A DNA stretch of 64,000 nt from Neiella litorisoli (GTDB lineage: Bacteria > Pseudomonadota > Gammaproteobacteria > Enterobacterales > Neiellaceae), in NCBI RefSeq assembly GCF_014773395.1, contig NZ_JACXAF010000023.1, forward strand, positions 1 through 64,000, read 5' to 3'. This document shows, piece after piece, positions 33,941 to 63,229 of the stretch (its first letter is position 1; each line of letters begins with the position of its first letter). The position numbers and the translations under genes were made by a program. The notes beneath the pieces are model-generated. The model was given only the letters and a program-made list of their open reading frames with translations, did not search any database and was not told where the DNA came from.

Positions 33941-34012
33941 CCCTCTTTTTAAGTCATAGGGCCGGTCAACTAACCGAGCTCTATGGCACTCCTAAAGCGT
34001 CAAAAATCAGTC

Positions 34013-34028
34013 TGGCACAAACGTTGCT
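34013..34028 (+). promoter_or_regulatory. Sigma-54 promoter of flgBCDE
   Basis: TGGCACAAACGTTGCT: GG-N10-GC spacing with both TGGCAC and TTGC perfect, 30 bases before the flgB start. Confidence 0.9.
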
Positions 34029-37232: not shown

Positions 37233-37249
37233 TTGGCGTTGATATTGCT
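37233..37249 (+). promoter_or_regulatory. Sigma-54 promoter of flgFGHIJKL
   Basis: TTGGCGTTGATATTGCT, with GG-N10-GC spacing and a perfect TTGC, 39 bases before the flgF start. Confidence 0.82.
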
Positions 37250-37287
37250 TTTGTCCGGTATAAGTTTCAACTGACAAAGGTTTGACT

Positions 37288-44883: not shown

Positions 44884-44900
44884 TTGGCACAGTCAATGCT
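44884..44900 (+). promoter_or_regulatory. Sigma-54 promoter of the first flagellin
   Basis: TTGGCACAGTCAATGCT: GG-N10-GC spacing and a perfect TGGCAC. It lies 95 bases before the flagellin start, so the leader is long. The leader can fold (GCCG/CGGC at about 44916-44930; GGCC/GGCC near 44950-44967). Confidence 0.85.
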
Positions 44901-44994
44901 TAATTCAATGTGTCGCCGAAAAAAACGGCAATTTATTGACTCGATTAGCGGCCTTCTGCTTAAGGCCATAAAACACTGAAGTTGGAGGCTAGAA

Positions 44995-46628: not shown

Positions 46629-49475
46629 ATGCTCAAACCGGGATGGCAACAGGAGTTTGGCCAACTGGCCGATTCTTGTATTCGTTTATTGTCGGAATTA
46701 GCTGAAACTGCCTACAAGCAGGGCAGCGTCACTCGCTTACGCGCAACGGTCGAGTGTTTATTAAAGCACGGCCATTGTGATGACCAACACCTGATCCACT
46801 TAGCTGAAGCCGGACTTAAAACCAGCCGTCCTCAACTTGCCGAATTTGCCCTTGGCAAACTCATCGAACGTTCTCCGCAACAAGCCGATTACTTACTTCA
46901 CCTTGCTAGTGTTCAAGCTGCGCAAGGCCAGTTCAGTCAAGCACTTGCTACCCTTGAGCAAGTTCCACAGCAATTTCACCAAGCGCCTGAGTTTACTCAG
47001 CAACAGGCTGATATTCGCTCTCGGCAGCAACAGCAACTGGAATTGCGTCAACTGATCAAAGACGTGTTAGTCAGCGATGTTGCCGCAGGGATGTCGGATC
47101 AAGATTTTGAAACCCACGGCCAGTCAATTTTGCAGGCGGCGATCAATCTTCAGGATCATCAGGCAATCATTGATGTGACCGTCGCGCTGAGTAAACGTCT
47201 GCCGTTAGAGCAAGAGTTGCTCATTCAGTTATGTCAAAGTCTCGAGCAAACTGACAATGACCAATGGATGGGGCGGTTCGTGTTGGCTTTGAGCGGTTGT
47301 GGCCAGTTCCCGCATCTGATCCGGTTTTACCTTGAGTGGATGTTGAACCGCAATCGCCAAAGTAGCTTAGTAGCCAGCAAGCCGTTGCTGCAATCGATCG
47401 TTGATCGTCATCATCCAAGTCATGTCGACGTAGTGGCTGTTTTGTTAGCTCTCAACAATGATTGGAAGGAATTTGGCCAGTGTGTGGATTTGGCCATGCA
47501 AACCATGACCAAGCCACCCGTGCTATTTCGCTATGCGGTGAGTTATTGGTTGCAAAATGGCCAAGCCGACAAACTCGAACCCTGGCTACAGCAAGCCGAA
47601 AATCTGACAGCCAATGAACTCCGATTTTTTGCCGCTGCACTGGAAGGGCAGCGGGAGCATTTGAGCACTCGCTTAGAGCTGCTTCAGCTGGCCTATGGCA
47701 AGGCCAATAATGATGCCAATATTCTCAATGACTTGGGCGATGCATTGCTCCACACCGGCAATAGTGCCGAGGCGATTCAGTGCTTCTTCAAAGCCATTAA
47801 CAATGAGCAAGAAGAAAGCTTTTATACCTGTTACAACCTCGCAGTGACATTGCAGGCCGAAGGCGATAATCGCCAGGCATTTGACTACTTTAAGCGAGCG
47901 ATCGCGGTTGATCCGCAGCAATGGCCAAGTTGGAAGCAGCTCTGTCATTTACTGGTCAGCTCTGGCACCTGGCAAATGGCCTACGATGTGGCTCGCTATT
48001 ATTTGTCCGAGCATGAAGATGACGCCCAAATATGGGGGCATTTGGCGACCGCAGCACTCAAGCTCAGCCAGATTGCAGATTCCCGCACTTACATTGAGCA
48101 GGCGCTGAAATTAAAGCCAAACGGCAGTGGTCCATTGACCAATTTAAGCCTTATTGAGATGGCTTGCGGCAATATTTCAGAGGCATTCGCCGCTAATCAG
48201 AAAGTTCTCATGAGTAGTTCGGCGCCGGATATGGTGCGCCAGAATGCGTTATCCAATATGTTGTTTTGCGGCAACTATGATCCCAATAAATCTGAGGCTC
48301 AGCTCTATAACATTTATCGCGCGGTAACGGGTCATATGCCGCGACAACAGTATTTTCCCAAGGTGCAAGATTATCAGGGCCGGCGTATTCGGATCGGTTA
48401 TGTGTCTGCGGACTTAAAGATGCATCCGGTGGCGTTTTTTGTCGAAGCGCTATTTGAACATCATGATCGCAGCCGATTTGAGATCTTTGCCTACTCGGGT
48501 GTCGGTATGGAAGATCATTATTCCGATATGCTTCGCAAGCACGTCGACCATTGGAAATACATCGGCAAGACGCCCGACCAAGAATTGGCCGAAATGATCA
48601 TTGAAGATGGCATTGATGTGTTGATGGATCTCAGTGGCCATACCGATGGCAACCGATTGAGCCTGTTTGCGTTGAAACCTTGTGCGGTGCAAGTGAGCTG
48701 GCTCGGGTTTGCCCACACTACAGGGATGCGGCAAATGGACTACTTCCTTGGTGATGAGCAATTGACGCCGCCATCTTGCGATCGTTATTTCGCTGAGAAA
48801 CCCTATCGCCTGCCGCGCGCTTCGTATTGTTTTACACCCAATGTGCGTTTTCGTGATTTTGTCCCGACAATTTCGCGTCGGCCAGACAAAGAGCCGCTGG
48901 TATTAGGTAATCTGGGCCGAGCTATTCGTTTTAATACGCCGGTATTGAAGTTGTGGAAGCGAGTGTTAGATGCGGTGCCAAATAGCATCATTAAAATCGA
49001 CAATCCCAACTTCAAAGATCAAGAAAGCCAGCAAATGATGCGGCAACGCTTTGCTGAGCACGGTATTGACAATGACCGTTTGTGGGTCGGTTTTACCTCT
49101 GATTATTGGCAATCCATTGTTGATATTGATATTGCCTTGGATGGTTTTCCGCAAAATTCAGGCACCACCTTATTTGAATTCCTTTGGTGTGGGACGCCCG
49201 TGGTGTCGCTCAAAGACCGACCGTCAGTGGGTCGTTTGGGCGCTATGGTGCTCCATGGTATCGGCCGAGATGAGTGGATTGCCGATACCGCCGAACAGTA
49301 CATTGAAATCGTCTCGCAGCTTGCTTCGGATCGTGACCAATTGCACCAAATTCGCAGCGGCCTGCGGCAGCAATTTCTTGATTCTGAGTTATGTGATGGG
49401 CCAGATTTTGCCCGTGCTGTAGAAGATGCCTATGTGGCTATGTTGAAGGAGAAATCCGCTGATGACAGTCATTGA
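46629..49475 (+). CDS. TPR-containing GT41 (OGT/SPINDLY-type) protein O-glycosyltransferase
   Basis: A 948-residue protein. Residues about 1-560 are helical TPR-type repeats, clearest at about 340-520 (AIQCFFKAINNEQEE and AFDYFKRAIAVDPQQW). Residues about 580-930 are the GT41 catalytic domain: RIRIGYVSADLKMHPVAFF, DVLMDLSGHTDGNR, QVSWLGFAHTTGM, and DGFPQNSGTTLFEFLWCGTPVVSL. Family members transfer GlcNAc or fucose to Ser/Thr. The lysine that contacts the donor phosphate in OGT (in the N-x-x-x-K-x-x-P stretch before the W helix) appears as R767. The gene is 56 bases after a flagellin terminator and first of a six-gene run with CDP-sugar genes, so flagellin is the likely target. Donor unknown. 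Confidence 0.88.
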   Translation: MLKPGWQQEFGQLADSCIRLLSELAETAYKQGSVTRLRATVECLLKHGHCDDQHLIHLAEAGLKTSRPQLAEFALGKLIERSPQQADYLLHLASVQAAQGQFSQALATLEQVPQQFHQAPEFTQQQADIRSRQQQQLELRQLIKDVLVSDVAAGMSDQDFETHGQSILQAAINLQDHQAIIDVTVALSKRLPLEQELLIQLCQSLEQTDNDQWMGRFVLALSGCGQFPHLIRFYLEWMLNRNRQSSLVASKPLLQSIVDRHHPSHVDVVAVLLALNNDWKEFGQCVDLAMQTMTKPPVLFRYAVSYWLQNGQADKLEPWLQQAENLTANELRFFAAALEGQREHLSTRLELLQLAYGKANNDANILNDLGDALLHTGNSAEAIQCFFKAINNEQEESFYTCYNLAVTLQAEGDNRQAFDYFKRAIAVDPQQWPSWKQLCHLLVSSGTWQMAYDVARYYLSEHEDDAQIWGHLATAALKLSQIADSRTYIEQALKLKPNGSGPLTNLSLIEMACGNISEAFAANQKVLMSSSAPDMVRQNALSNMLFCGNYDPNKSEAQLYNIYRAVTGHMPRQQYFPKVQDYQGRRIRIGYVSADLKMHPVAFFVEALFEHHDRSRFEIFAYSGVGMEDHYSDMLRKHVDHWKYIGKTPDQELAEMIIEDGIDVLMDLSGHTDGNRLSLFALKPCAVQVSWLGFAHTTGMRQMDYFLGDEQLTPPSCDRYFAEKPYRLPRASYCFTPNVRFRDFVPTISRRPDKEPLVLGNLGRAIRFNTPVLKLWKRVLDAVPNSIIKIDNPNFKDQESQQMMRQRFAEHGIDNDRLWVGFTSDYWQSIVDIDIALDGFPQNSGTTLFEFLWCGTPVVSLKDRPSVGRLGAMVLHGIGRDEWIADTAEQYIEIVSQLASDRDQLHQIRSGLRQQFLDSELCDGPDFARAVEDAYVAMLKEKSADDSH

Positions 49476-50253
49476 TAAGCAAATGAAAGCGGTGATCTTG
49501 GCCGGTGGCCTAGGAACCCGCATTAGCGAAGAATCGCACTTGAAGCCAAAACCCATGATTGATGTCGGCGGCAGACCTATTCTGTGGCATATCATGAAAA
49601 TATGCTCCCACTATGGCATCAATGATTTCGTCATTTGCCTTGGTTACAAGGGCTATAAAATCAAAGAGTATTTCAGCAATTACTTTTTGTATAACTCGGA
49701 TGTCACCTTCGACTTTCAATCCAACAGCATGGACGTCCACAATAAGCACGCTGAGCCATGGAAAGTCACTTTAGTTGATACAGGGGATGATTCGGATACG
49801 GGCGGCCGACTGCGGCGAGTTCGCGATTACCTTGGTGATCAACCTTTTTTATTTACCTATGGTGATGGTGTTGCCGATATTAATATCGAGCAGTTGGTGG
49901 CATTTCATCAATCCCATGGCAAATTGGCCACCGTGAGTGCGGTGCTGCCTCCGGGGCGTTATGGTGCACTTGAATGCGATGGCGATAAGGTCAACGGTTT
50001 TCGTGAGAAGCCGCGCGGCGATGGTGGCATGATCAACGGTGGCTTCTTTATTTTGAATCCGGCAGTCGTCGATTACATTGCCGATGATACGACGTCATGG
50101 GAGCAGGCACCGTTAAACAACTTGGCAGCTGATGGCCAATTGCAGGCTTACCGGCATGACGGCTTCTGGCATGCGATGGATACCCTGCGCGACAAAAACC
50201 ATCTAGATGGCCTATGGAAATCGGGTAAAGCACCATGGAAAGTTTGGCCGTAA
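49462..50253 (+). CDS. rfbF: Glucose-1-phosphate cytidylyltransferase
   Basis: Makes CDP-glucose from CTP and glucose-1-phosphate. The 263-residue protein opens with the nucleotidyltransferase motif VILAGGLGTRISEE, then KPKPMIDVGGRPILWHIMK, and has FTYGDGVADI near residue 130. These match RfbF rather than RmlA. The start overlaps the GT41 gene by 14 bases and the end overlaps rfbG by 19 bases, so the genes are translationally coupled. Confidence 0.95.
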   Translation: MTVIDKQMKAVILAGGLGTRISEESHLKPKPMIDVGGRPILWHIMKICSHYGINDFVICLGYKGYKIKEYFSNYFLYNSDVTFDFQSNSMDVHNKHAEPWKVTLVDTGDDSDTGGRLRRVRDYLGDQPFLFTYGDGVADINIEQLVAFHQSHGKLATVSAVLPPGRYGALECDGDKVNGFREKPRGDGGMINGGFFILNPAVVDYIADDTTSWEQAPLNNLAADGQLQAYRHDGFWHAMDTLRDKNHLDGLWKSGKAPWKVWP

Positions 50254-51311
50254 CGGCAGATTTCTGGCGAGGAAAACGGGTTGTTGTCACCGGCCATACC
50301 GGTTTCAAAGGTAGCTGGCTGGTCGCTTGGTTGACCAAGCTGGGGGCCAAGGTGACGGGGCTCTCATTGCCGCCAAACACTTGTCCGGCACTGTTTGACT
50401 TGCTCAGTATGGCTGCCAAGGTTGATCATCAGCTGATTGACATTCGTGATGCTGACAAGGTTCAGCAAGCGCTCACCGCGGCAAACCCTGAAGTATTATT
50501 CCACCTCGCAGCGCAACCCCTAGTGATTGATAGCTACCAGCAGCCCGTGCAGACGATGGCAACCAATGTCATGGGCACAGCTCATGTGCTCGACGCAGCT
50601 CGCCACTGTCCGGCGCTTCGAGCCGCGGTGATCATCACCACGGATAAGGTGTATCGGCCGGTGCCGAATGGCGCGCGCCATGTCGAGAGCGATCACTTGG
50701 GAGGGCATGACCCCTACAGTGCCAGCAAAGCCTGCACCGAATTGTTAGTGGATAGTTTTCGATCGTCTTTTTTTGCGAGTGATCATGCTGCTCAAATTGC
50801 CACCGTTCGCGCTGGAAATGTCATAGGTGGCGGCGATTTTGCAGAGAACCGGTTAGTGCCAGATATTTGTCGGGCGTGGGCGTCGGATCGCCCAGTTGTG
50901 ATCCGCCAGCCCGCTGCGATTCGACCCTGGCAGCATGTACTTGATGCGCTGCATGGCTACTTGTTGTTGGCCCATGGTTTGTGGCAACAACAGGGCTTGG
51001 ACCGAGCCTGGAATATTGGCCCAGCGGCAACCGATATGTGGCCTGTTGCGGAGATCGTTGAGTACATGCAAACCTTATGGAATGGGGCAAAAGGCATGAA
51101 AATCGAAGCAATGGAGTATCACGAAAACCCCAGCTTGTTGCTTAATAGTGATGCAATTACTCAAGCAACGGGCTGGCGTCCGGTATGGGGCTTGTCACAA
51201 GCCCTCGAACAGACCACTCGTTGGTATCAGTTATGGGCTGATGGTCTTGATGTCAACGATTTGACCAACTGCCAAATTGAACAATTCATGAAGGATGCAA
51301 CACGCTCGTGA
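50235..51311 (+). CDS. rfbG: CDP-glucose 4,6-dehydratase
   Basis: Converts CDP-glucose to CDP-4-keto-6-deoxyglucose. The 358-residue extended short-chain dehydrogenase shows the RfbG cofactor motif TGHTGFKGSWL near residue 19, the TTDKVY motif, and the catalytic Y161 and K165 in YSASK. It overlaps rfbF upstream and the epimerase downstream by four bases. The product is the branch point for CDP-linked 6-deoxy and dideoxy sugars. Confidence 0.95.
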   Translation: MESLAVTADFWRGKRVVVTGHTGFKGSWLVAWLTKLGAKVTGLSLPPNTCPALFDLLSMAAKVDHQLIDIRDADKVQQALTAANPEVLFHLAAQPLVIDSYQQPVQTMATNVMGTAHVLDAARHCPALRAAVIITTDKVYRPVPNGARHVESDHLGGHDPYSASKACTELLVDSFRSSFFASDHAAQIATVRAGNVIGGGDFAENRLVPDICRAWASDRPVVIRQPAAIRPWQHVLDALHGYLLLAHGLWQQQGLDRAWNIGPAATDMWPVAEIVEYMQTLWNGAKGMKIEAMEYHENPSLLLNSDAITQATGWRPVWGLSQALEQTTRWYQLWADGLDVNDLTNCQIEQFMKDATRS

Positions 51312-51883
51312 AGCAAGAATTTTCGCTTGAACCCCTGCCGTTGGCGGGGGCATTTCGTATTCGCCATAAAGTGTTTGCCGATTCGCGTGGGATGTTCAAA
51401 CGTATTGGCTGTCATCAAGCCTTACTTGAGGCTGGCGTGGATGCGCAACCGCGTCAGGTGAATTGTTCGATGACCCCGCAACAGGGAACGGTCAGGGGAA
51501 TGCATTTTCAGTTGCCGCCCGCTGCCGAAGTAAAAATTGTCAATTGCTTCAATGGCGCGCTGTTTGATGTGTTGGTCGATTTGCGTCCTGATTCTGACAC
51601 CTTTTTACACTGGTATGGAGAGCGCTTAACGGCCGACTCCCACACCAGCCTCATTATCCCTAAAGGCTTTGCTCATGGCTTCCAAGCACTGACCGATAAT
51701 GTTTTGATGATGTATTTGAACAGCACCGACTACAGCCCAGAGCTCGAAGGCGGGCTGCATCCCCAAGACCCAACGCTTGCCATCGAGTGGCCGTTGCCTG
51801 TCATTGGTTTGTCGCAGAAGGATGCCGAACGAGCATTCATTGATAACCAATTTGGCGGCATTGTGTTAGCTGAGCATGATTAG
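51308..51883 (+). CDS. RmlC-like sugar 3,5-epimerase, probably for CDP-4-keto-6-deoxyglucose
   Basis: A 191-residue cupin-type epimerase. H66 in TVRGMHFQ and Y136 in the MMYLNSTDYSPE strand match the RmlC catalytic His/Tyr, with IPKGFAHGFQ at about 117-126. rmlA and rmlB are absent here and rfbFG are present, so the substrate is more likely CDP- than dTDP-linked. GTG start overlaps rfbG by four bases. It could be a 3-, 5- or 3,5-epimerase. Confidence 0.85.
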   Translation: MKQEFSLEPLPLAGAFRIRHKVFADSRGMFKRIGCHQALLEAGVDAQPRQVNCSMTPQQGTVRGMHFQLPPAAEVKIVNCFNGALFDVLVDLRPDSDTFLHWYGERLTADSHTSLIIPKGFAHGFQALTDNVLMMYLNSTDYSPELEGGLHPQDPTLAIEWPLPVIGLSQKDAERAFIDNQFGGIVLAEHD

Positions 51884-51903
51884 CTGAGTCGTGGCTTAAA
51901 TCT

Positions 51904-52770
51904 ATGAAAATAGCAATAACCGGTGCGTCAGGATTTATCGGCCAACATGTCTTGCAAACACTATTGCAGCAGGGCCATGAAGTGGTGGCGATTGTCCATG
52001 AAAGGCCGATTGCGGTTGGTCACCCACGCTTATCAACTGTCAATCTATCACTGGCGCAATTAGCCCAATCTCCCCTTGCTTTTGCTCGGCTTCACCAGCC
52101 GGATGTGTTGTTGGATTTGGGCTGGCAGCACCTTGATGACTATGATCACCAATCTCATCTGGCCGAACAGCCGCAGTTACATCAGGCATTGGTGGAGAAC
52201 TTAGTTCGCCAAGGTTTGCCGCGTGTTGTTGGCGTTGGTACCTGTTTTGAATACGGTGACGTTAGCGGCGAAGTCGGTGAAGAGCATGCTTGCCTGCCGT
52301 TGCAAAACTACCCTCTCGGTAAGTTGCAATTACTGCAATCGTTGCAACAACTACAACAGCAAATGGCATTTTCATTGTGTTGGCTGCGGCCGTTTTATGT
52401 CTATGGTTTGAACACTGCAAGACCAACATTGTTTAACGCCATTAAAACTGCGTCTGAGCGAGGAGATGAACAATTCATACTTCGCACACCGAATGCGTCG
52501 CACGATTTTATCGAGGTCTCAATGTTGGCCGATATGATTGCACGGATAACGCTCGTGGGGCAGGATGATGGCGTGATTAACTGTTGTCGTGGGCGCTTGC
52601 GGACGGTCCAGCAAGTGGCAGATGCGTTTGTTGAAGAACATCATCTGCCTATTGAGCCAGTATCCGGCGCCAATCCAGCTCCCGCTCCGGCGAACCCATT
52701 TTTTGGCGCAGTTGGCAAATTACACCGCATTTTGCAGCGCTCTACTGAATCATTTTCTGGAGAACAATAA
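51904..52770 (+). CDS. NAD-dependent epimerase/reductase, probable 4-ketoreductase of the CDP-sugar route
   Basis: A 288-residue extended short-chain dehydrogenase. The Rossmann motif TGASGFIG is at residues 6-13, and the catalytic Y136-x3-K140 lies in NYPLGK. Following rfbF, rfbG and an epimerase, it most simply reduces the 4-keto group to complete a CDP-6-deoxyhexose. It follows the epimerase by 20 bases, and the sulfotransferase begins two bases after it. A 4-epimerase is an alternative role. Confidence 0.8.
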   Translation: MKIAITGASGFIGQHVLQTLLQQGHEVVAIVHERPIAVGHPRLSTVNLSLAQLAQSPLAFARLHQPDVLLDLGWQHLDDYDHQSHLAEQPQLHQALVENLVRQGLPRVVGVGTCFEYGDVSGEVGEEHACLPLQNYPLGKLQLLQSLQQLQQQMAFSLCWLRPFYVYGLNTARPTLFNAIKTASERGDEQFILRTPNASHDFIEVSMLADMIARITLVGQDDGVINCCRGRLRTVQQVADAFVEEHHLPIEPVSGANPAPAPANPFFGAVGKLHRILQRSTESFSGEQ

Positions 52771-52772
52771 CT

Positions 52773-53402
52773 ATGCCTGTGCTCGTCAATGGCAAGCAAC
52801 ATTTACTATTTATCCATGTGCCCAAAACCGCTGGCACATCAATGGAAATTCTGTTTCAAAAAAGTGGTTGGGGCGTTGGTTATGTTGACTATGGTTTGCA
52901 GGGCACCCTCAACCATTTACGGCCTTGCTCGCCGCAACACATGCATGCCGAAATGTTGCAGCAGCAGTTTGTACTGCATCAGTTTTCCGGCATTTTTATG
53001 ATTGTGCGCCACCCGTACGCGCGTTTCCGCTCTGAATATTGTTTTGCTAATCAGAACAAACTGGATACGTCAGCAGCTGCGGTAGAAGCTTGGACCCGCA
53101 AAGTAATGAGCGTGTACGCTGCTAATCCCCACATTCTTGATAATCATATCCGCCCCCAACATGAATTTTATCTGCCTGGCGCATCGGTTTATAAACTGGA
53201 AGAAGGGTTTGAAAAAATGAAAGCCGACTTGTCGGCCATGTATGGCATTCAGTTTAGCAATGAAGATGTTCGAGAAATGACGCGAGAGAAACAGCACGGC
53301 TTTTCGTCATCGGATGTCGAATTGAATGATAACGTCAAAGCCATGCTCGATGTGTTCTATGCCGAGGATTTCATCAAATTTGGATACGAGCGAAGCGAGT
53401 AG
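52773..53402 (+). CDS. Sulfotransferase (Sulfotransfer_2 type)
   Basis: A 209-residue PAPS-dependent sulfotransferase. The 5'-phosphosulfate loop appears as FIHVPKTAGTSME near residue 13, and the 3'-phosphate motif as IVRHPYARFRSEY near residue 75. This subtype usually sulfates carbohydrates. It is the last gene of the GT41-rfbFG-epimerase-reductase unit, starting two bases after the reductase, so its acceptor is probably the sugar made there. No membrane anchor or signal is seen; it would act in the cytoplasm. Confidence 0.87.
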   Translation: MPVLVNGKQHLLFIHVPKTAGTSMEILFQKSGWGVGYVDYGLQGTLNHLRPCSPQHMHAEMLQQQFVLHQFSGIFMIVRHPYARFRSEYCFANQNKLDTSAAAVEAWTRKVMSVYAANPHILDNHIRPQHEFYLPGASVYKLEEGFEKMKADLSAMYGIQFSNEDVREMTREKQHGFSSSDVELNDNVKAMLDVFYAEDFIKFGYERSE

Positions 53403-53460: not shown

Positions 53461-55980
53461 CTAAACCTGCAGCCAATCTTCGACATCAATGTCAAACTGC
53501 CGCCCTAATTGGTCGGTGTCCTGAAAGTAAAAGCCGCGTAAGAACTGTCTTTGTTCAATTGATAACTGTGTTTTATGTGGCTTTTTGTTGACCGGTTTGC
53601 CCGGAATTTGCTGATGCTCGACGCCGATGAAATCGAATACGCGATTCAAGGTGTCTTGGTGCCGATAAAGCAGATCGTCGTGCTTGAGCAATAACAATTG
53701 GTCAGCAGAAAAGTACTTCAGCACATTTTGTAGTTGTTGTGCGTATAGGCCCCGCTCGAGCAACCCAGGTTTAACCGGCTGCAAGCTACGATAATCATCA
53801 ATCGCAAAATCTAAGAAATCGACGTCGCCTTGAAGCACATTGTTTCGGAACAACATATTCCAATGAGAATTGGCCCGAGCGATTGGATCCCTGAGTAAAC
53901 AAATGAGTTTCATGTCGGGGTTGTAACGGGCAATGGCAGCCATCGCATGTTCGTAACGCAGGTAAGCCGGTGTGGCCTCGCCACAAGCAAGGGTTTGTTC
54001 CGACGGCTGAAACTGCTGTTCGAGCAAACTGTAGTCGTGATTTTGTTGCTCATCATAAAAGTAATGCAGTTCTTTTTTGTCCGCGGGCATACACACCTCA
54101 GCGTGTTGTCGGAGGAAATAGTCCAGCGCGGTGGTGCCGCACTTTTGTGCGCCGATAATGACAAAATTCAGTAGCGGATGAGATTGGTTGAGCCGCTTTG
54201 GGGTTTTCACTGCAGGTTTGGTCGGCAACTGGCTGCCAACGCCGAGCGAATCGATAGGCGCAATGTGGGTGGTTGCAACAGGTGCTGAGGTATTGCTCGG
54301 TTGCGCTGGTTGTTGCCAATCATTGAGCAGTTGTTGCTCGGAATAATTAGCCATGCTTGGCGCCGTTGCGAGCACCGTATATGACCTTGCCTGCTGACTG
54401 GTAAATGTTGCCATTGCAGGGATCTCAGCCGACTCCGTGGAGCTGTGCTCAATGACCAAGGCACTATCAGAGGATGTGGTTACGACTTTGGCCGCGCGCT
54501 GTAGGAGATTTTCCAATCGTCGCTTTTGCATCAGCGCTAATATTTGGCGGCGTGGTAAATCAAGCAGGTGAGCGACTAGGGTCTGTCGCTGCGCAACGCT
54601 GAGGTCATCCTGTTTCGGCGGCTTCGCTTTGCTTGGGTGCTCAACCAGTATTAGATTGTCGGCGCCAAGCAAAGTCAGCTCCGACAAGTTGTAAATTCGC
54701 AACAAAGCCGCTACCGCAAACGGTTTAGCTGGTATCCCAGCCAAGTGAAACAATACGACTTTTTGACCACAAGCATTCAGCGCGGCGGCAGTTTCGGGCG
54801 TTAACGGCTGATGATTAAGATCGACCCAGATGAGGCCATCGCAAGCTGCGACTTGTGGGCTTTGTAAGTCCAGTTGACCGGCATCATTTACCGGACAGGA
54901 AACAAGCTCGCCAAGTTCGGCAGCAGCCAATGTATCGATCAAGTAATCGGGACAGGCCCAGCGCTGATGCGCCGATTGTTGACCCAGTAAAGGACGCAAC
55001 GATGCTGTATTTGGCAACAGTTGCAGGGCATTGTCATCGTCGATCTGACCCAGATAACGATATGCTTGGCAAAGCAGCTGCAATTGCTGCTTCGATGATT
55101 TTTTCTGGTAGCCCTTGAGTAAGGTTGCTAGTTCAGGTTCAAGTAATTGCTCGTCGTAGACGCGCTTGCCAGCTAAGTGGTTGTAATAGGCAACAAGCTC
55201 TTTACGATACACTTGCCCCCAAGGACGACGTAACAAATCGTCCATGTTGCTGATACTCAGGCTCAAGCCACCATCAATCCAGCGGACGTTGGGGAATTGC
55301 TGCCGTAATTTGAGCATCCAGTAGGTGCCAATCGTTGCGGCTTGCAGCAAAACCACCCCATGATTGTCAAACCGTTCAAGCGCAGCAACAATCTCGTCTT
55401 CAAACATGTGACGCATACAGCAGGTATTGGATGGGTGAATTTGAATGTGTTCAAAGCGCGGTAGTTTGAACAAACTGCCCAGCTCTTTGAGGTAGCCAGG
55501 CCCTACCAGCAATACGTTTTCTTGTTGCAGACGGTCAATCAGTTGATCAAATGAGAAGTCATGGATCGCCAGTTTCAGTACGAGGCCACCGTCATTATTG
55601 ATCGCCTCTTTTCCCACCATAGACTCTAGAAAAGGAACCGATTTTTCTGGCGAATGTGGGGTACCGAGAATGGCGTTGTCATTGGGCCACGCACTTAAGC
55701 CGAAATTTAAGCTTAAGCTCGGATCTTGCGCCGCCAGCGCTTGTTTTAATAGCACATCGAGTTCATCGACCAAGCCATCTTCCCAGTAGCGTCGCGGGCT
55801 ATTGCCGTTGCTTTGCTGGTATCGGATATCTGCCTGAATCTTTTGTTCTATCGTTTCGGGCCAATCAACACCGGATAACGATTCAGCCAGCTTTTCCCAA
55901 TAACCATGATTGATCTTGGTATAGGAAAAATTGGGGTATTGGTCATATTGCTCAATAAAACGATCGAGTGCTTTTTTCAC
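53461..55980 (-). CDS. Large fusion protein with a C-terminal sulfotransferase domain
   Basis: An 839-residue protein. Residues about 605-839 are a sulfotransferase domain: IIGAQKCGTTALDYFL as the PAPS 5' loop and CLLRDPIARANSHW near residue 693 as the 3' motif. Residues 1-250 resemble a sugar-nucleotide enzyme fold, with LLVGPGYLKEL, HPSNTCCMRHMFEDEI and VVLLQAATIGTYWML followed by WIDGGLSLSI; this recalls GT-D type glycosyltransferases, but I cannot confirm it. Residues about 330-480 are a second globular part and 500-600 a low-complexity Ser/Thr/Pro linker. It is last in a three-gene sulfotransferase operon (with 57025 and 56007), 26 bases after the previous gene. Confidence 0.78.
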   Translation of the reverse strand: MKKALDRFIEQYDQYPNFSYTKINHGYWEKLAESLSGVDWPETIEQKIQADIRYQQSNGNSPRRYWEDGLVDELDVLLKQALAAQDPSLSLNFGLSAWPNDNAILGTPHSPEKSVPFLESMVGKEAINNDGGLVLKLAIHDFSFDQLIDRLQQENVLLVGPGYLKELGSLFKLPRFEHIQIHPSNTCCMRHMFEDEIVAALERFDNHGVVLLQAATIGTYWMLKLRQQFPNVRWIDGGLSLSISNMDDLLRRPWGQVYRKELVAYYNHLAGKRVYDEQLLEPELATLLKGYQKKSSKQQLQLLCQAYRYLGQIDDDNALQLLPNTASLRPLLGQQSAHQRWACPDYLIDTLAAAELGELVSCPVNDAGQLDLQSPQVAACDGLIWVDLNHQPLTPETAAALNACGQKVVLFHLAGIPAKPFAVAALLRIYNLSELTLLGADNLILVEHPSKAKPPKQDDLSVAQRQTLVAHLLDLPRRQILALMQKRRLENLLQRAAKVVTTSSDSALVIEHSSTESAEIPAMATFTSQQARSYTVLATAPSMANYSEQQLLNDWQQPAQPSNTSAPVATTHIAPIDSLGVGSQLPTKPAVKTPKRLNQSHPLLNFVIIGAQKCGTTALDYFLRQHAEVCMPADKKELHYFYDEQQNHDYSLLEQQFQPSEQTLACGEATPAYLRYEHAMAAIARYNPDMKLICLLRDPIARANSHWNMLFRNNVLQGDVDFLDFAIDDYRSLQPVKPGLLERGLYAQQLQNVLKYFSADQLLLLKHDDLLYRHQDTLNRVFDFIGVEHQQIPGKPVNKKPHKTQLSIEQRQFLRGFYFQDTDQLGRQFDIDVEDWLQV

Positions 55981-56006: not shown

Positions 56007-57011
56007 TTACTTTTTGTCTTCAATGAAATGTGGCTTATTTCTGATCTCGGTGATTTTCCGATGCAGTTTGCCTCGGCGCTCGCGCTCTGCTTGCGGGATT
56101 GTCATAAACTCTGGCTTCTCGTAGGGTTCAACGGCGCTCAATTGTGCTTCTAACTCGATAAAGTCACTGTCGTTTAAACGGTCATATATTGGGTTGTAAC
56201 CCAATGAGGCCATTTCATCCCAGCATAGGTATTCGATGAATTTGATTTCATCTTGGGTGAGCCGCTTTTCAAAGGTATTGAAGTTGTTTTGCATCAGCGG
56301 GTTACCAATATTGCGCCAGTCAATGGCAACACTAGAGCTGGATTGGGTTTCCTGCTTTTGGTGAAAATTCAGCATATCCGGATGAAAGTCGATGCCCAAC
56401 AGCGCGCAGGCGTGTTGCAAGGTTTGTTGCGGTTGCTGCAATAGTGACTCGTAGCTGAAACAGGGGACTTTATCGGCGCCGATTTCATGGCGCATGGCGG
56501 TGTAGCCATGTTGGTCTTGCTTCCAGGTTCGTGCCGCTCGGACAACGCCGCCGCGAATAGCAAAACCTTGCTTCCAAGACGAGGCCATGTCGCGTGGATC
56601 GCGCATCATGTAGAGGTACTTCGCATCGGGAAAGTAACGTCGGATATAGCTGGCATAGCTGTAAATTTGATTTTCTTTGAGCAGGATATGCTGTTTGCCA
56701 TGCAGTTCACGCTCTTGTTTGTAGATCGCACTGAGCAGACTTGGAAAGTCGCCCGGTTCAGCAAAGTCCGCGATCATCTTGTTATCTAAGGTTAAGCGCC
56801 ACGCTGAATTTTTGAGTTGAAAAAGCTCTAGCGTGTCTTGGGTCAACTGTTGCCATGATTGTTTGAGATTGCCGTATTTCCATAGATTAGGAACCATGAT
56901 CTGAGCAAGGTGACTCGGGCTCGGGCCGCAAACATCAGGGTGAGCATCAAAGATTTTGGTGATTAAATTGCTTCCGCTTCGCTCGGAGCACATTAAAAAT
57001 ATTTCGGACAC
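56007..57011 (-). CDS. Sulfotransferase family protein
   Basis: A 334-residue protein with a Stf0-like PAPS loop close to the N-terminus (FLMCSERSGSNLITKIFDAHP) and the 3' motif YMMRDPRDMASSWKQG near residue 135. The second half is helical with a basic/acidic tail (KLHRKITEIRNKPHF). I place the start at GTG 57011, with AAGGA eight bases before it; a longer reading overlaps the upstream gene. Thirteen bases separate it from the upstream sulfotransferase, so the two are in one operon. Confidence 0.85.
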   Translation of the reverse strand: MSEIFLMCSERSGSNLITKIFDAHPDVCGPSPSHLAQIMVPNLWKYGNLKQSWQQLTQDTLELFQLKNSAWRLTLDNKMIADFAEPGDFPSLLSAIYKQERELHGKQHILLKENQIYSYASYIRRYFPDAKYLYMMRDPRDMASSWKQGFAIRGGVVRAARTWKQDQHGYTAMRHEIGADKVPCFSYESLLQQPQQTLQHACALLGIDFHPDMLNFHQKQETQSSSSVAIDWRNIGNPLMQNNFNTFEKRLTQDEIKFIEYLCWDEMASLGYNPIYDRLNDSDFIELEAQLSAVEPYEKPEFMTIPQAERERRGKLHRKITEIRNKPHFIEDKK

Positions 57012-57024
57012 AGTTGCTTTCCTT

Positions 57025-58035
57025 CTAAAGCACGTTGGAGCCAACGACTGGGTTGCAGTCGTTGGCTCGGCAGTGAAATTGGTAGGCGTTTAACAAGCGA
57101 CTCATATCGGTATCGCTCAGCACTTGCTTTTGTTTGGCATGAAACTGCTTGACGCCGCTGTACTGTTCGGGAATTTGATAGTCGAGGCTGGCTAGAGTTT
57201 GTCGCAATTGTTGATAGAGCGACTCTGGCGCCTGACAAAATTCATCGTAATCAATGTCTAGCGCGTGAGAGAGTTGGCCCAGCTGTGCGCGAATCGATCG
57301 ATTGGTGTAAAACACTTGGCCAGCGACTTGATGGAAGTAATCCATGGTGGCTAGCTGTTGATATTGTTTGGGTTTGACGGACCACCATTGCTCTCGGCAG
57401 CCATGATATTGCTCGCGGGCCAGCAGAATCGACTGCATATTGTGCTTCACGGACCGGTGACAGTGAATAATGACTGCGCTTTTCAGGTAGCGGCAAAGCG
57501 AAGCGAGATTGAATTGAGCCATCATAGCTTTGGTCACAAATGGCTTTTCAAAGACGTCCTGAATACTAAATAAACCCTGGCACATGCCTTGCCAGTCGAC
57601 CGCTGCGACTTCCTCTTTGGATAAGTGCGTTGGCATGTAGTGGTGGATGTACTGGCGGAAGAAATGCTGAAACTCGCAGGTAGCCAGAGCACCGCGGCTT
57701 TTACCGAGGTCGGAGTTAAAATTGACGGTCGAGCGGAGATCAGTGAAATCACCGCTTGGATCGCATTGTTGCTCGAACAACATCCGCTGAACCAGTGCGC
57801 CAATGTGTGGCGCATAAGCAAATCGATTAAGAACGTTGCTCGGATAGGCAAATAGCCCTAACGAGGCGAGCCACTGAAGCATCAGGGTGGTGCCGCTACG
57901 AGGCGCACCGACGATTAATATCGTTGGCCATTGGGTTTGCTGATGGTGGACCTGCTGTTGCTTTTGAACTGGGCCGAGCAGCGCGCTCAACTGGGCAATC
58001 ACGTGTTCAAGCTGGCTGTAGTTGTGTTCGGTCAT
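57025..58035 (-). CDS. Sulfotransferase family protein
   Basis: A 336-residue protein with the PAPS loop ILIVGAPRSGTTLMLQWL near residue 40 and a 3'-phosphate-type motif IIHCHRSVKHNMQSI near residue 190. I start at ATG 58035; an upstream TTG would add 17 unconserved residues. It is the first full gene of the 57025-56007-53461 operon. A sigma-54 promoter lies at 58206, and its leader holds a hairpin and a short upstream ORF whose stop is 10 bases before this start. Acceptor unknown. Confidence 0.83.
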   Translation of the reverse strand: MTEHNYSQLEHVIAQLSALLGPVQKQQQVHHQQTQWPTILIVGAPRSGTTLMLQWLASLGLFAYPSNVLNRFAYAPHIGALVQRMLFEQQCDPSGDFTDLRSTVNFNSDLGKSRGALATCEFQHFFRQYIHHYMPTHLSKEEVAAVDWQGMCQGLFSIQDVFEKPFVTKAMMAQFNLASLCRYLKSAVIIHCHRSVKHNMQSILLAREQYHGCREQWWSVKPKQYQQLATMDYFHQVAGQVFYTNRSIRAQLGQLSHALDIDYDEFCQAPESLYQQLRQTLASLDYQIPEQYSGVKQFHAKQKQVLSDTDMSRLLNAYQFHCRANDCNPVVGSNVL

Positions 58036-58045
58036 ATCACGCTGT

Positions 58046-58105
58046 TTATGCTTCAGGAGACAGCTGATTCTGGACGTTGCCATCAACAGTCATGGTTTCG
58101 GACAT
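58046..58105 (-). CDS. Short upstream ORF (19 codons) in the sulfotransferase leader
   Basis: ATG at 58105, preceded by GAGGTGATAGG, opens 19 codons (MSETMTVDGN start) ending in TAA 10 bases before the sulfotransferase ATG. The sulfotransferase itself has a weak ribosome site, so translation may be coupled through this ORF. The peptide shows no family features. Confidence 0.4.
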   Translation of the reverse strand: MSETMTVDGNVQNQLSPEA

Positions 58106-58130: not shown

Positions 58131-58162
58131 CTGACTGGTGTCGCAATATTGCGGCCAGTCAG
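58131..58162. repeat. Inverted repeat in the sulfotransferase operon leader
   Basis: CTGACTGG (58131-58138) pairs with CCAGTCAG (58155-58162), enclosing an inner palindrome GCAATATTGC. It lies downstream of the sigma-54 promoter at 58206, so it would fold in the leader RNA. It may protect or regulate the message. Confidence 0.5.
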
Positions 58163-58205
58163 GCTTTATCTGGGTGTCGAATTGCCGTGGATTATGGGAT
58201 TTAAA

Positions 58206-58222
58206 AGCATTTAGTGTGCCAA
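58206..58222 (-). promoter_or_regulatory. Sigma-54 promoter of the sulfotransferase operon
   Basis: On the minus strand TTGGCACACTAAATGCT: GG-N10-GC spacing and a perfect TGGCAC, nearly the same as the flagellin promoter at 44884. It lies between the wbqC-like gene and the sulfotransferases and points at the latter. Confidence 0.82.
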
Positions 58223-58229
58223 TAGTCAG

Positions 58230-58934
58230 TTATACCAGTTCAAATTCAGCTAAATAGCCACGAATCTGTTCCACTGAGTTGTTCATCATGACGTCAATGA
58301 TGCTCAAAAAAGGCACAAATTGATGGTTGCCAACTTGTTGGTAAACGATGTTGCTCGGTTGCAGGAAACTCAATTTGATATGTCGTTTGGCAAAGTCATC
58401 TCGATTGTATAGGGCGGTGCCGCCGATCGGATTTATGTAGTGGCTGGCGGCCATTAACTGGTTCAGTTCCAAGACTCGGTTTTGTCCGTGCAGTGCGTTG
58501 TTCTTGGCAAGCTGCGATGATGTGACGAACTCGGTGTTGATGGCCAGATATTGGCAACAGGTTTGAAGGGTATGAGTGGCAAATAGCGCCATATTGGTAA
58601 GCGGTGTCGCTAAGCTTTGAGCAACCACATCTATCGCTTGTTGGTAGTAGGGCGCTTTACCATAAGCACCTTGAATTTGCCGCAATATTTTAGCTTTGTG
58701 CTGGTCGCAGTCAGCAGATAGCTGGCGTTCGTTAATGGCTAATAACGTGGAATCTTTTTTCAACGGAAAGGTAATGTAGTGAGCTTTTCCCTGAACGAGT
58801 ATGCGATTTCGATTGATCCAGCCTCCTTTGATCCACTGGACATCATCATGAACGACGAAGCGATCGACGGCATTGATTAATTGAAAGTAGCCAATGTAAG
58901 GAAATACATAGGGCTGCATGATGGCGATTTTCAT
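58230..58934 (-). CDS. WbqC-like family protein
   Basis: A 234-residue protein of the WbqC family, found in O-antigen and flagellin-modification clusters. The signatures are MQPYVFPYIGYFQLINAVDRFVVHDDVQ at the start and the later NPIGGTALY. The chemistry is not firmly established; members are suspected of aminoacyl or formyl-type transfer to amino sugars. It is last of a four-gene unit running from 61941 with two aminotransferases and a methyltransferase, 54 bases after the methyltransferase gene. Confidence 0.87.
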   Translation of the reverse strand: MKIAIMQPYVFPYIGYFQLINAVDRFVVHDDVQWIKGGWINRNRILVQGKAHYITFPLKKDSTLLAINERQLSADCDQHKAKILRQIQGAYGKAPYYQQAIDVVAQSLATPLTNMALFATHTLQTCCQYLAINTEFVTSSQLAKNNALHGQNRVLELNQLMAASHYINPIGGTALYNRDDFAKRHIKLSFLQPSNIVYQQVGNHQFVPFLSIIDVMMNNSVEQIRGYLAEFELV

Positions 58935-58988: not shown

Positions 58989-59783
58989 TTATTGCCAATA
59001 ATCCATGAAGCCATTTTTGAAATGCAAATATTGCCAACCTAAAGCGTGGTTGAGCTGCTCAACTCGAGGTTGCACTTCAGCGGCTGGTTCACGAAAAAGC
59101 ACCCACATTTTTGAGTGTTGATTGTATACCGAGCATTGGTATCCCCAATCCTTCATCAACAACGCCATACTTTTGTTGGTATGAAAAGCGCAGTGTACGG
59201 GGATCAAGTACATCCAATTGGGATCTTGAGGGACATTTTCGGGAACCAGAGTGTGAATGGCAAAACAGCCTTTGTCGCTGACGTAAGATTCGATTTCATC
59301 TAGGGTGTCGCGATCACGGACATGCTCGAACACGGCAGTGTTGACGACCAGATCGAATTGTCTTGGGAGCAGTGCAGTTTCATCGATCGCATTGATATGC
59401 GGCGTAAAATACTTATCGTAAGTTGATAGTTTCAGATCAAAGTAGTCGTTCAATAACTGCGATACAGCACCCACACCACAGCCCCAATCGAGCCAGTCGC
59501 CGCGATTAATCAAGCCTTGCTTGGTCATCAGTGAAAGCATTAATGATTGGTTAAAATAACGCTGGTTCCGATTATGTGGATTGTCCTCCGCATAATGGCT
59601 TTTCGAGTGATAGGCCTGGTTCAACTGATTCCAATCGTTTGGGGATAATTCAAAGTGGCTTTGAGATGCGCAAAAACCGCAGTGGGGGCATTTGCAATAA
59701 TCCACTTTTCCCAGCTCATACTCATCAAATTGCTTCGAAAAGTAATAATGCATGTGGGTATCGCAGATAAGGCATTTCATCAC
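58989..59783 (-). CDS. SAM-dependent methyltransferase with an N-terminal zinc-finger
   Basis: A 264-residue protein. C4-x2-C7 and CKCPHCGFC near residue 30 form a probable zinc site, a layout shared with sugar C- and N-methyltransferases. The SAM-binding motif I is WLDWGCGVGAVSQLL near residue 97, with VNTAVFEHV near 145. Either GTG 59783 or the next ATG could start it; AGGA fits the GTG. In its operon it follows two aminotransferases, so it may methylate the sugar or its amino group. Confidence 0.82.
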   Translation of the reverse strand: MMKCLICDTHMHYYFSKQFDEYELGKVDYCKCPHCGFCASQSHFELSPNDWNQLNQAYHSKSHYAEDNPHNRNQRYFNQSLMLSLMTKQGLINRGDWLDWGCGVGAVSQLLNDYFDLKLSTYDKYFTPHINAIDETALLPRQFDLVVNTAVFEHVRDRDTLDEIESYVSDKGCFAIHTLVPENVPQDPNWMYLIPVHCAFHTNKSMALLMKDWGYQCSVYNQHSKMWVLFREPAAEVQPRVEQLNHALGWQYLHFKNGFMDYWQ

Positions 59784-59832: not shown

Positions 59833-60792
59833 TTACTCAGTTTGCAGCAATTGCTCAACGGCGTCAGCTAATACCGTCATCTGCACAATGGAATAGCGGT
59901 GGTCGATCGGCAAAGCTAATAAATGTTGAGCAAGATGTCGTTCTGTCGCTGGTGTTTCGGGACGCCTCGTTTCAACGTCAGCCCACAACGATGGTATGAA
60001 CAACCCTTGCTGAGAGAGCGCGGTGCGGTCGATGGCGTCTTCCGTAAGTAACGGGTAACAAAAGGGGCTAACGGGATGGCTAGGAATATCCAACTGATTG
60101 TATTTGCCTAGTCGTTGATGCAAAAGGTGGAAGTTACGCAGCCGAGATTGATACACCGCCAGCATGTCCACTTGTCGCATAAGCTGCTGACTTAAGGGGT
60201 GCATTTCAGCGATAGCACAATCAAAGCGCTGTTCGTGAGCTTGATAAAACGAATAGCCTTGTTGCACTTGTCCCGCCGCTCTTAACTCCAAATGTTGGGT
60301 CTGTCGGGCGGGAGCCGGCGTCGCAGCCACTGACGCTGATGGTGCACAGAGTAATGCGCCATCGGGTATGCCGAAGTATTTACGGAGCGAACTAAAGGAA
60401 TAGTAGGGCGAAGGTTCAAACCCAAACAGGTTGTGGGTGTCGTCAATTATCAACTGTTCCGGATGATAGCTGGCAGTGAGCTGCGTTTTGAAATCAGAGC
60501 AGATGCCAAAATAGTTAATCCACAGCAATACTGCTTGTGGCTCCAATTGAGGTAACGAGCGAGGATTGAACTGCTGATCAATTGAATAGAAATGTAGCTC
60601 AATGGCTAATTCTCTAAATGGCGCCAGCACGGAATCACAACAATAATGCGGGACGTAAGCCTGTTTCGGTTTGAGATGTTGAAGAATGGCCGTAAGGCAG
60701 GCTCGGCCACTGGCTAAACGATGTAACTCAGGCTGTTGCCAGATTGGCGCCTTGGGCTGTTCGAGCTCAAAATAACCGCCAATGTTGTGCAC
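59833..60792 (-). CDS. Divergent DegT-like PLP aminotransferase
   Basis: A 319-residue protein with the fold-type I pattern: SGRACLTAIL at 28-37 where cofactor phosphate binds, D117/D118 in IIDDTHNLFG, and K138 in SSLRKYFG as the likely Schiff-base lysine. It is shorter than typical DegT proteins and poorly conserved elsewhere, so the reaction may differ (amino transfer or dehydration of a keto sugar). It lies 57 bases downstream of a canonical DegT gene. Confidence 0.7.
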   Translation of the reverse strand: MHNIGGYFELEQPKAPIWQQPELHRLASGRACLTAILQHLKPKQAYVPHYCCDSVLAPFRELAIELHFYSIDQQFNPRSLPQLEPQAVLLWINYFGICSDFKTQLTASYHPEQLIIDDTHNLFGFEPSPYYSFSSLRKYFGIPDGALLCAPSASVAATPAPARQTQHLELRAAGQVQQGYSFYQAHEQRFDCAIAEMHPLSQQLMRQVDMLAVYQSRLRNFHLLHQRLGKYNQLDIPSHPVSPFCYPLLTEDAIDRTALSQQGLFIPSLWADVETRRPETPATERHLAQHLLALPIDHRYSIVQMTVLADAVEQLLQTE

Positions 60793-60849: not shown

Positions 60850-61941
60850 TTAGTGCGCCGCCACTAGTTGTTGAAACAATGCACTGAGCTGCTGGTCGCT
60901 TAGATGACAAGTTTCGCTGTGACAGGGCACATTAATAATCCGGTCGTACAGAGCTTTAGCGGTTGGCGTTGCCGCCAGCGGCGTGTAGTACTTTCTCAGC
61001 GTGATATATGGATTGTTAAGCTGGCTATCGGCGATTGGCTGCGGTGCCAATAATGGCACATTGCCGTATGGCTTATCGGGTTCGAGTGGCAATAACAGGG
61101 TAAAGCCTTGTTGTTCTGCAAGTGCCGCGATTCGAGCCGCTTGCTGGGCGTAAACTGGATACCATTCAAACATTTGCTGTAGCCACGCCATAATCGATGC
61201 GGCATTAATGTCAGCCAGCTTTTCATTACTGCAATAGCGGCGCTCAATATGAGATTGGGCGCGGCCAAAGCACAACATATCTTTGATTAGTTTATCGTCT
61301 TGTTCGTTGACGATAATGCAACCACCTTCGCCAATGCCCCACGGTTTAGTTTGATGAAAACTGATCGCTTCATTGGGGGAATGTTGGTGGCGCCAACCGG
61401 AAAACAGCCCCACGGCATTATCAACAATCAGCACTTTATTAAGTTGCTTACACAGTTGCTCGTAGGCGCTAATGTCCTGACACAAACCAAAAATATTGGT
61501 GATCACAACACCGTCCCAGCTCGATTCGGGCAGTGCTTGTAATGCGTCAATACTGAGCATGCCAGAGGCATCGCAGTCGAGGATTTGGGCGTCGCTCAAA
61601 CAGCCAATATTACTGGCAATAAAGCCGAACGCGGAAATCACCCAATTGAGCTGACGGCCTGCTTTATGCTCTTCTAAGTGGACTAGCGTTTGCAAAGCCG
61701 CGGTCCCACTTTTACACATGACCGCTTTTTTGTGTGGTGGCAGGTGTAATTTCTGTTCCAGAAAGCTTTCTAAACGTTGACTTGCTGGGCCGTAATTAGC
61801 CCAGTGGTTGGACGCTTTACTATCAGAGAGTAGGGATTGAATAGCCTCAAAATCCATGGCTTTGTTTTCAATAAATGCCACTGGTTTTGCATCGGAGAAC
61901 AACTCAACTGCCGGTGTGGCTTGTGGATTTTGTGTTGCCAT
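60850..61941 (-). CDS. DegT/DnrJ/EryC1-family sugar aminotransferase
   Basis: A 363-residue PLP enzyme. S78-G-T-A-A cofactor-binding loop, D174 in LIVDNAVGLF and the Schiff-base K199 in SFHQTKPWGIGEGG are visible. Such enzymes transaminate nucleotide-linked keto sugars. It is first in the unit with a second aminotransferase, methyltransferase and WbqC protein, and has a sigma-28 promoter 64 bases upstream, placing the unit in the late flagellar class. The CDP-4-keto-6-deoxyglucose from rfbG is a possible substrate; a UDP-sugar from elsewhere is as likely. Confidence 0.87.
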   Translation of the reverse strand: MATQNPQATPAVELFSDAKPVAFIENKAMDFEAIQSLLSDSKASNHWANYGPASQRLESFLEQKLHLPPHKKAVMCKSGTAALQTLVHLEEHKAGRQLNWVISAFGFIASNIGCLSDAQILDCDASGMLSIDALQALPESSWDGVVITNIFGLCQDISAYEQLCKQLNKVLIVDNAVGLFSGWRHQHSPNEAISFHQTKPWGIGEGGCIIVNEQDDKLIKDMLCFGRAQSHIERRYCSNEKLADINAASIMAWLQQMFEWYPVYAQQAARIAALAEQQGFTLLLPLEPDKPYGNVPLLAPQPIADSQLNNPYITLRKYYTPLAATPTAKALYDRIINVPCHSETCHLSDQQLSALFQQLVAAH

Positions 61942-62031: not shown

Positions 62032-62202
62032 GTTATCCTCGGTACAAAAGCGTCATATTAAGAGCCGTCGCCGAGTGACTTGTTAGGCAAGTGGCGTAGC
62101 GCATAGAGATTCGTCATTGTGCGCGCCAGCTGGCTAATGGCAGCTTTTTGACGCAACGCTTACTCGTTATAAGCGAAGCACATTACATGCCAGCGCCGAC
62201 TA

Positions 62203-62952
62203 TCAGCGCATTAATAGTTGGTGATAATTATCCAAATTAATCGTGGCGGCGATGACAGATCGTTGCTGCTCATCAAGCCCGAGTACCCGCTTTGCTTCAA
62301 TTTGTTTGCGTTTGTCGGCATTTTGCTGCCATTGCTCAAGTTGCATCGCTGGCAGTGGCAATTGCAAAGTCTGATACAAATCCTCGAGTACAGCGGTATC
62401 GCGATATAAATCTTCGTATTTGATCACGAAAATGCTGAGCTGCTGCATGGCATCAAGGGTTTTGGCAATGGATTCATTCCATTCATCAATAGCGACTCGC
62501 CAATTTCGCTCGATGGGCCAGAGGCGCTCGGCTGACTGACCTTGGGCGACTTGTTGTTGAGTTTTGTCCGCGCGTTTCTGATATGAGTCCGCGACTTCAT
62601 AGGGGTTGCGAACCATATAGATGACCTGACAGGCGGGGAAGTTGTCGATTAGCTTGTCATAGTGATTAAACAATGACGGCAATTTATCGCCGACCCATTT
62701 GGCCTGATCGAAGTATTCGACCGCCTCGCCATAATAAGCTTGATGCACTGCATGATGAGAGTCTTCGGCTTGGTAATCGATGCAGAATCGGTGCTTTGCA
62801 AATAAGGATGGGTCAAAACCGCCACTCTTTGCCAACCGCCAAGCGAACCGTTCTCGGCCCATCACAATCGCTCGATCATTCCGCAAAAAGTCGGCAATTG
62901 TTGTGGTTCCGGAACGCGAGGTTCCAGTAATGAATAAATGATGTTGGGGCAT
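62203..62952 (-). CDS. Sulfotransferase family protein
   Basis: A 249-residue protein with the PAPS loop FITGTSRSGTTTIADFL at residue 8 and the 3' motif YMVRNPYEVADSYQ near residue 125. GDK-x-P (VGDKLPSLF near 87) is also typical. I start at 62952, with GGAG eight bases before the ATG. It is a single gene with a sigma-54 promoter 51 bases upstream, divergent from the second flagellin. Confidence 0.85.
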   Translation of the reverse strand: MPQHHLFITGTSRSGTTTIADFLRNDRAIVMGRERFAWRLAKSGGFDPSLFAKHRFCIDYQAEDSHHAVHQAYYGEAVEYFDQAKWVGDKLPSLFNHYDKLIDNFPACQVIYMVRNPYEVADSYQKRADKTQQQVAQGQSAERLWPIERNWRVAIDEWNESIAKTLDAMQQLSIFVIKYEDLYRDTAVLEDLYQTLQLPLPAMQLEQWQQNADKRKQIEAKRVLGLDEQQRSVIAATINLDNYHQLLMR

Positions 62953-63002: not shown

Positions 63003-63018
63003 AGCAGTCACTATGCCA
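63003..63018 (-). promoter_or_regulatory. Sigma-54 promoter of the sulfotransferase at 62203
   Basis: On the minus strand TTGGCATAGTGACTGC: GG-N10-GC spacing is exact; the -12 part is CTGC rather than TTGC. It lies 51 bases before the start codon. Confidence 0.7.
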
Positions 63019-63202
63019 ACATCAGGTAAGTGATTTGGATCATGTTTAGCCCCGTTGATGGAATATGGATAAAAAATGAGTGCGATCGTCGAGAAAATGT
63101 GAAAAGCAAGCTAAAACAATTTGATAACTCGAGGTGTTAACGCGAGTAAAGGCTTTTGCAATGCGCATTCGGAGAGATTCGATAAAAAATTAAATTTTTT
63201 TC

Positions 63203-63229
63203 TAAAGGATTTTTTTAACGGCCCGATAA
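63203..63229 (+). promoter_or_regulatory. Sigma-28 (FliA) promoter of the second flagellin
   Basis: TAAAGGAT, 11 bases, then CCCGATAA, close to the FliA consensus TAAAGTTT-N11-GCCGATAA and similar to the flgM promoter. It lies 62 bases before the flagellin start. Confidence 0.88.

Follow-up and report, generated by a model that had tools for sequence, protein, structure and literature searches.

Gene content of the flagellin island

The window analysed here is a stretch of 64,000 nucleotides from Neiella litorisoli, in which two flagellin genes form the borders of a flagellum-glycosylation island. Flagellin 1 is followed on the plus strand by a glycosyltransferase, sugar-nucleotide genes and a sulfotransferase, and the remaining genes up to flagellin 2 form an array on the minus strand. 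The components of the island are:

44995..46572, plus: flagellin 1 (PF00669, PF00700)
46629..49475, plus: TPR and GT41 glycosyltransferase with an FlmG-like layout, directly behind flagellin 1
49462..52770, plus: four sugar-nucleotide genes (nucleotidyltransferase, epimerase/dehydratase, dTDP-sugar isomerase, epimerase)
52773..53402, plus: fifth sulfotransferase (Sulfotransfer_2; PF03567, E 2.1e-10)
53461..55980, minus: large protein with a C-terminal sulfotransferase domain (PF00685, E 8e-15, residues 606-790)
56007..57044, minus: sulfotransferase (Sulfotransfer_3; PF13469, E 1.4e-25)
57025-58086, minus: sulfotransferase (Sulfotransfer_3; PF13469, E 1.5e-12), loop GAPRSGTT, start at 58083 or 58035
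58230..58934, minus: WbqC-like protein, directly upstream of the promoter described below (PF08889, E 6.5e-67)
58989..59783, minus: methyltransferase (PF13489)
59833..60792, minus: 319-aa conserved island protein, no Pfam or NCBIfam match
60850..61941, minus: DegT-type sugar aminotransferase (PF01041)
62203..62952, minus: fourth sulfotransferase (PF13469, E 1.3e-19), ATG start
63203..63229, plus: TAAAGGATTTTTTTAACGGCCCGATAA, sigma-28-like promoter of flagellin 2, shared with N. marina

Late flagellins are expected to have sigma-28 promoters. The flagellin 2 gene begins at 63291 and extends past the end of the window; beyond it lie genes assigned as flaG and fliD from their position and from relatives, followed by a histidine kinase with an NtrC-type regulator on either side.

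An earlier note on this DNA had placed three sulfotransferase genes behind a sigma-54 site at 58206-58222, and all three products (57025-58086, 56007-57044 and 53461-55980) indeed match sulfotransferase families. The reading frames of this unit are separated by an overlap of 20 nt and a gap of 26 nt, so that a single transcript is likely. The 5' phosphosulfate-binding loops read from the sulfotransferases are GAPRSGTT, CSERSGSN, GAQKCGTT and GTSRSGTT; these loops, together with Pfam matches over the cut-off, place the sulfotransferases of the array among the PAPS-dependent families, and catalysis is predicted. In the product of 53461-55980, approximately 600 residues without a Pfam or NCBIfam match lie ahead of the sulfotransferase domain. 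The true start of the first sulfotransferase is uncertain. Ahead of this gene there is a 19-codon frame with a good ribosome-binding site, MSETMTVDGNVQNQLSPEA (58046-58105, minus strand), at whose position the sister species Neiella marina J221 has MAETVTVDGHY; this frame may encode a translation-coupling leader peptide.

The whole island is present in N. marina J221, with its gene order unchanged. In two other relatives (G001 and G004) the island has the same borders and different cargo, which argues for a replaceable flagellum-glycosylation island, as in Alteromonas; in G001 an array on the minus strand includes a related DegT gene and has no sigma-54 site, a point against the explanation favoured below. 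The proximity of a sulfotransferase to a flagellin looks uncommon: among the matches listed for 119 genomes of the order, inspected by eye, one near case was seen besides the two Neiella species (G018, at about 21 kb). N. marina has, on another contig (G002 contig 12, 93844-124721, L093-L094), a second flagellin pair with a sulfotransferase match in between and an otherwise unrelated neighbourhood, and no good intergenic sigma-54 site was found in front of that sulfotransferase.

Predicted sigma-54 promoters of the array

The site named in the earlier note, TTGGCACACTAAATGCT, occupies 58222-58206 of the minus strand and lies 8 nt past the stop codon of the WbqC-family gene. It has the exact GG-N10-GC spacing that had been claimed, with the TTGGCA/TGC consensus at -24/-12. 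From the spacing of these elements the start of transcription is predicted at about 58195, and some 100 nt separate the site from the first plausible start codon in the sulfotransferase unit. Two further sites of this type are present in the array, both intergenic, one preceding the DegT aminotransferase gene and the other the fourth sulfotransferase gene. The predicted promoters, with that of flagellin 1 for comparison, are:

58206-58222, minus: sigma-54 promoter TTGGCACACTAAATGCT, 16.53 bits, kept in N. marina
62177..62193, minus: second array sigma-54 promoter CTGGCATGTAATGTGCT, score 15.77, kept in N. marina
63003..63019, minus: third array sigma-54 promoter TTGGCATAGTGACTGCT, score 15.22, kept in N. 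marina
44884..44900, plus: flagellin 1 sigma-54 promoter, used for comparison by matrix score

A loose search for TGGCAC-N6-TGC with up to two mismatches was uninformative, giving 275 matches versus 269 expected; since this pattern is no better than chance, full sites were scored with a matrix based on the published consensus for sigma-54. The site at 58206-58222 is among the best sigma-54 matches of the 72-kb contig, and the likeness to the flagellin and flgB promoters proposed earlier is borne out, as its score equals that of the flagellin promoter (44884-44900) and is below that of flgB (34012-34028, 18.58 bits). Four places in the contig reach a score of at least 16.53, versus three in ten first-order Markov shuffles taken together. 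Genome-wide, where the counts are those of pattern searches, the strict pattern TTGGCAY-N6-TGCW gave 22 matches versus 6 with the reversed control, and about half of the 22 directly precede genes, including flagellin 1 and a presumed flrB, the histidine kinase gene. The genome also carries rpoN, identified by a profile match (PF04552, E 5.3e-72).

In N. marina J221 the equivalent site, TTGGCATGTAACATGCT, has the same position in front of the first sulfotransferase. All nine core bases are identical between the two species versus two of eight at the other positions, and the identity is 52-65% in the flanks and 52% in nearby DNA. The other two array sites likewise keep nine of nine core bases each; given the regional identity, the chance of core identity is 0.018, 0.010 and 0.015 for the three sites taken separately. 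None of the four other GG-N10-GC strings in the intergenic regions of the array is conserved in N. marina, and an equally strong plus-strand site inside coding DNA (57577-57593), which has no counterpart there, provides an internal check on chance matches. The footprint of conservation is shallow because the array is common to only two species. In another genus of the same family, the identical 17-mer TTGGCACACTAAATGCT is found upstream of a flagellin gene (L069). Distant homologues of the first sulfotransferase (L004, 38% identity; L005, 29%) have no sigma-54 site of comparable score in front of them and therefore neither help nor refute the assignment, whose weight rests on the quality of the full consensus, the intergenic position, the correct orientation and the conservation, all of them properties of the sequence.

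Other motifs were seen in the vicinity of sigma-54-like sites. Directly upstream of the third array promoter, ATGATCCAAATCAC (about 63025-63050, minus strand) resembles an FNR/CRP-type site and is kept in N. marina. Elsewhere in the window a weaker sigma-54-like site (37233-37249, plus strand), also kept in N. marina, precedes the gene at 37282, and CCACGG...TTTTGACGC lies upstream of it in both Neiella species.

Sigma-70 and sigma-28 promoters were rejected: no minus-strand sigma-70 match was found between the WbqC gene and the operon, and no sigma-28 match at the site, though flagellin 2 has one. A leader hairpin formed by CTGACTGG...CCAGTCAG was rejected as an attenuator or conserved RNA element, given that its outer arms are not kept in N. 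marina and that it folds with an unremarkable energy (z -1.3); its inner part, CGCAATATTGCG, is conserved in N. marina and is part of the activator motif described below.

A candidate activator motif downstream of the start

The flagellin 1 promoters of the family have in common the motif GGCAA-N5-TGAC, located about 15-30 nt past the predicted start of transcription. The copy at flagellin 1, the matches in the array of a matrix trained exclusively on four flagellin sites, and one further copy noticed by eye are:

44926..44942, plus: CGGCAATTTATTGACTC, motif copy past the start of flagellin 1, from the comparison of flagellin promoters
58138..58154, minus: CCGCAATATTGCGACAC, candidate site for an FlrC-like activator, at +42 to +58 from the sulfotransferase promoter
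58173..58187, minus: second, degenerate motif copy CGGCAATTCGACACC, +9 to +23; weak, noticed by eye in an alignment, with a different spacing
62138..62154, plus: TGGCAGCTTTTTGACGC, candidate activator site at +13 to +29 from the DegT promoter

The match CCGCAATATTGCGACAC has a p-value of about 0.01 per 110 bp, and its copy in N. marina is identical and at the same offset. For TGGCAGCTTTTTGACGC, after the DegT promoter, the p-value is 0.012, and 0.0015 in N. marina. These p-values are mildly optimistic because the sites had been noticed by eye before the matrix was built. After the third promoter (63003-63019) the flagellin-derived matrix found no match.

Near the island, by fliD, a histidine kinase and an NtrC-type response regulator lie behind a second NtrC-type regulator, as in an flrABC-like cluster; no FlrC-specific family model gave a match above its cut-off among these regulators. 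The FlrC sites of Vibrio, usually found past the start of transcription, work as true enhancers (PMC6504787). Judging from these sequences FlrC is a likely activator of the array promoters, which would likely belong to class III; the tie between the motif and FlrC is one of position and of the flagellin promoters, and the sites are candidate sites.

Interpretation and alternative explanations

The sequence itself supports the promoter elements and their conservation, and the gene content as well. The sigma-54 reading and flagellar tie put forward in the earlier note are also supported, since all sequence tests applied to the site agree with them: the score, the intergenic position, the orientation, the conservation across species, the identical 17-mer at a flagellin gene of the family and the flagellin-derived motif downstream; rpoN and nearby NtrC-type regulators are present too. 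To that note it can be added that 58206-58222 is one of three conserved sites of the array and that the genes belong to a flagellum-glycosylation island. In the explanation that we favour, a genuine sigma-54 promoter at 58206-58222 would start transcription at about 58195 and drive the three closely packed sulfotransferase genes, and the three sigma-54 promoters would together serve the minus strand of the island. Most likely the array would be activated, along with the hook and flagellin genes (class III), by FlrC, the local response regulator, from sites just past the start, so that the sulfotransferases, the sugar-modifying enzymes and the TPR-GT41 glycosyltransferase would be made when flagellin is made and the flagellin glycan would become sulfated. 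Taken as a whole this explanation seems probable to us; dependence on RpoN and FlrC, co-transcription and flagellin as the substrate are the steps that we infer.

The least favoured alternative is that 58206-58222 is a chance match, or binds sigma-54 without transcription, and that a promoter further upstream supplies the transcript. Chance alone would give about 0.3 sites of equal quality per 72 kb, and the plus-strand site at 57577-57593 is just such a match, equally good, coding and unmatched in N. marina; moreover, no terminator-like site was found between the WbqC gene and the operon, so that readthrough from WbqC could also supply the transcript. Against this, the site is intergenic and correctly oriented, its core is conserved and it is repeated at the starts of two more units, which makes this alternative very improbable. 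It could also be that the promoter is real and that its activator is another one, either FlrA, as in class II, or an NtrC-type nutrient regulator, in which case the genes would not be FlrC-dependent members of class III. Strict sigma-54 sites do precede non-flagellar genes as well, e.g. a NirB-like gene (named from its translation), the motif is matched with moderate strength (p about 0.01) and one promoter is without it; nevertheless, the position of the site between two flagellins, a motif learned from flagellin promoters and an identical site at a flagellin promoter make a different activator unlikely.

The remaining alternative accepts a flagellar promoter and directs the sulfotransferases to another surface glycan, such as LPS or capsule, with timing as the only thing in common. 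The WbqC and DegT families, which O-antigen clusters also contain, are compatible with it, but the location of the island between flagellins, the TPR-GT41 enzyme directly behind flagellin 1 and the block-wise replacement in relatives speak against it, and we regard it as rather unlikely. Returning to flagellin as the substrate, the conserved promoter and the two more like it suggest that the cell probably sulfates flagellar sugars during assembly of the flagellum. The more specific proposal of a sulfated filament, in which the five sulfotransferases of the flagellin island act at a time set by dedicated sigma-54/FlrC promoters, is a tentative one, about which we are somewhat doubtful. Should it prove true, sulfation of the cell surface would belong to the programme of flagellar assembly, and Neiella would make it possible to test a sulfated flagellum in a bacterium, with possible effects on phage binding, host or algal recognition and motility in seawater. 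Flagellin-type sigma-54 promoters with the downstream motif would also offer a simple rule for spotting glycan genes that serve the flagellum.

Comparison with known systems

In the open-access literature, which omits most subscription journals and is thus weak evidence on this point, neither a sulfotransferase under sigma-54 flagellar control nor a sulfated bacterial flagellin was found. Sigma-54 control of a flagellin-glycosylation gene is already known from Helicobacter pylori; a sulfotransferase module under sigma-54 was not found in the literature searched. In the H. pylori flaB-jhp0106 operon, the glycosylation gene is under RpoN control, which was tested with a mutated RpoN site (PMC5368276). 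The Neiella array resembles it in the RpoN-type (sigma-54) promoter, its control being predicted from sequence; unlike the array, which has three promoters of its own, jhp0106 is cotranscribed from the flagellin promoter, encodes a Maf-type enzyme and involves no sulfotransferase.

The archaeon Halobacterium salinarum has sulfotransferases that act on sugars in the N-linked tetrasaccharide of glycoproteins (PMC11980604), and the archaellins of this organism are N-glycosylated (PMC6591318). The system differs from that of Neiella in being archaeal and N-linked, with another filament and another regulation. In Caulobacter, FlmG combines TPR and GT-B glycosyltransferase domains and acts on flagellins (PMC7591256); the product of 46629-49475 is likened to it by layout only, and FlmG adds pseudaminic acid. 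The flagellum glycosylation island of Alteromonas is a block of flagellar glycan genes that can be replaced (PMC4033161, PMC5864184), and Neiella is similar in having glycan genes of replaceable content within the flagellar cluster; the difference is that these accounts of the Alteromonas island mention neither sulfotransferases nor internal sigma-54 promoters.

A close regulatory precedent for the explanation favoured here is found in Vibrio cholerae, where the class III promoters under FlrC and sigma-54 include those of flaA, flgB and flgK (PMC6504787, PMC7064773). Both systems have sigma-54 promoters, a flagellin promoter in the set and activator sites, candidate ones in Neiella, that typically lie downstream of the start. 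In V. cholerae these promoters serve structural flagellar genes, whereas the Neiella array, with a putative activator, would drive sulfotransferase and sugar genes.
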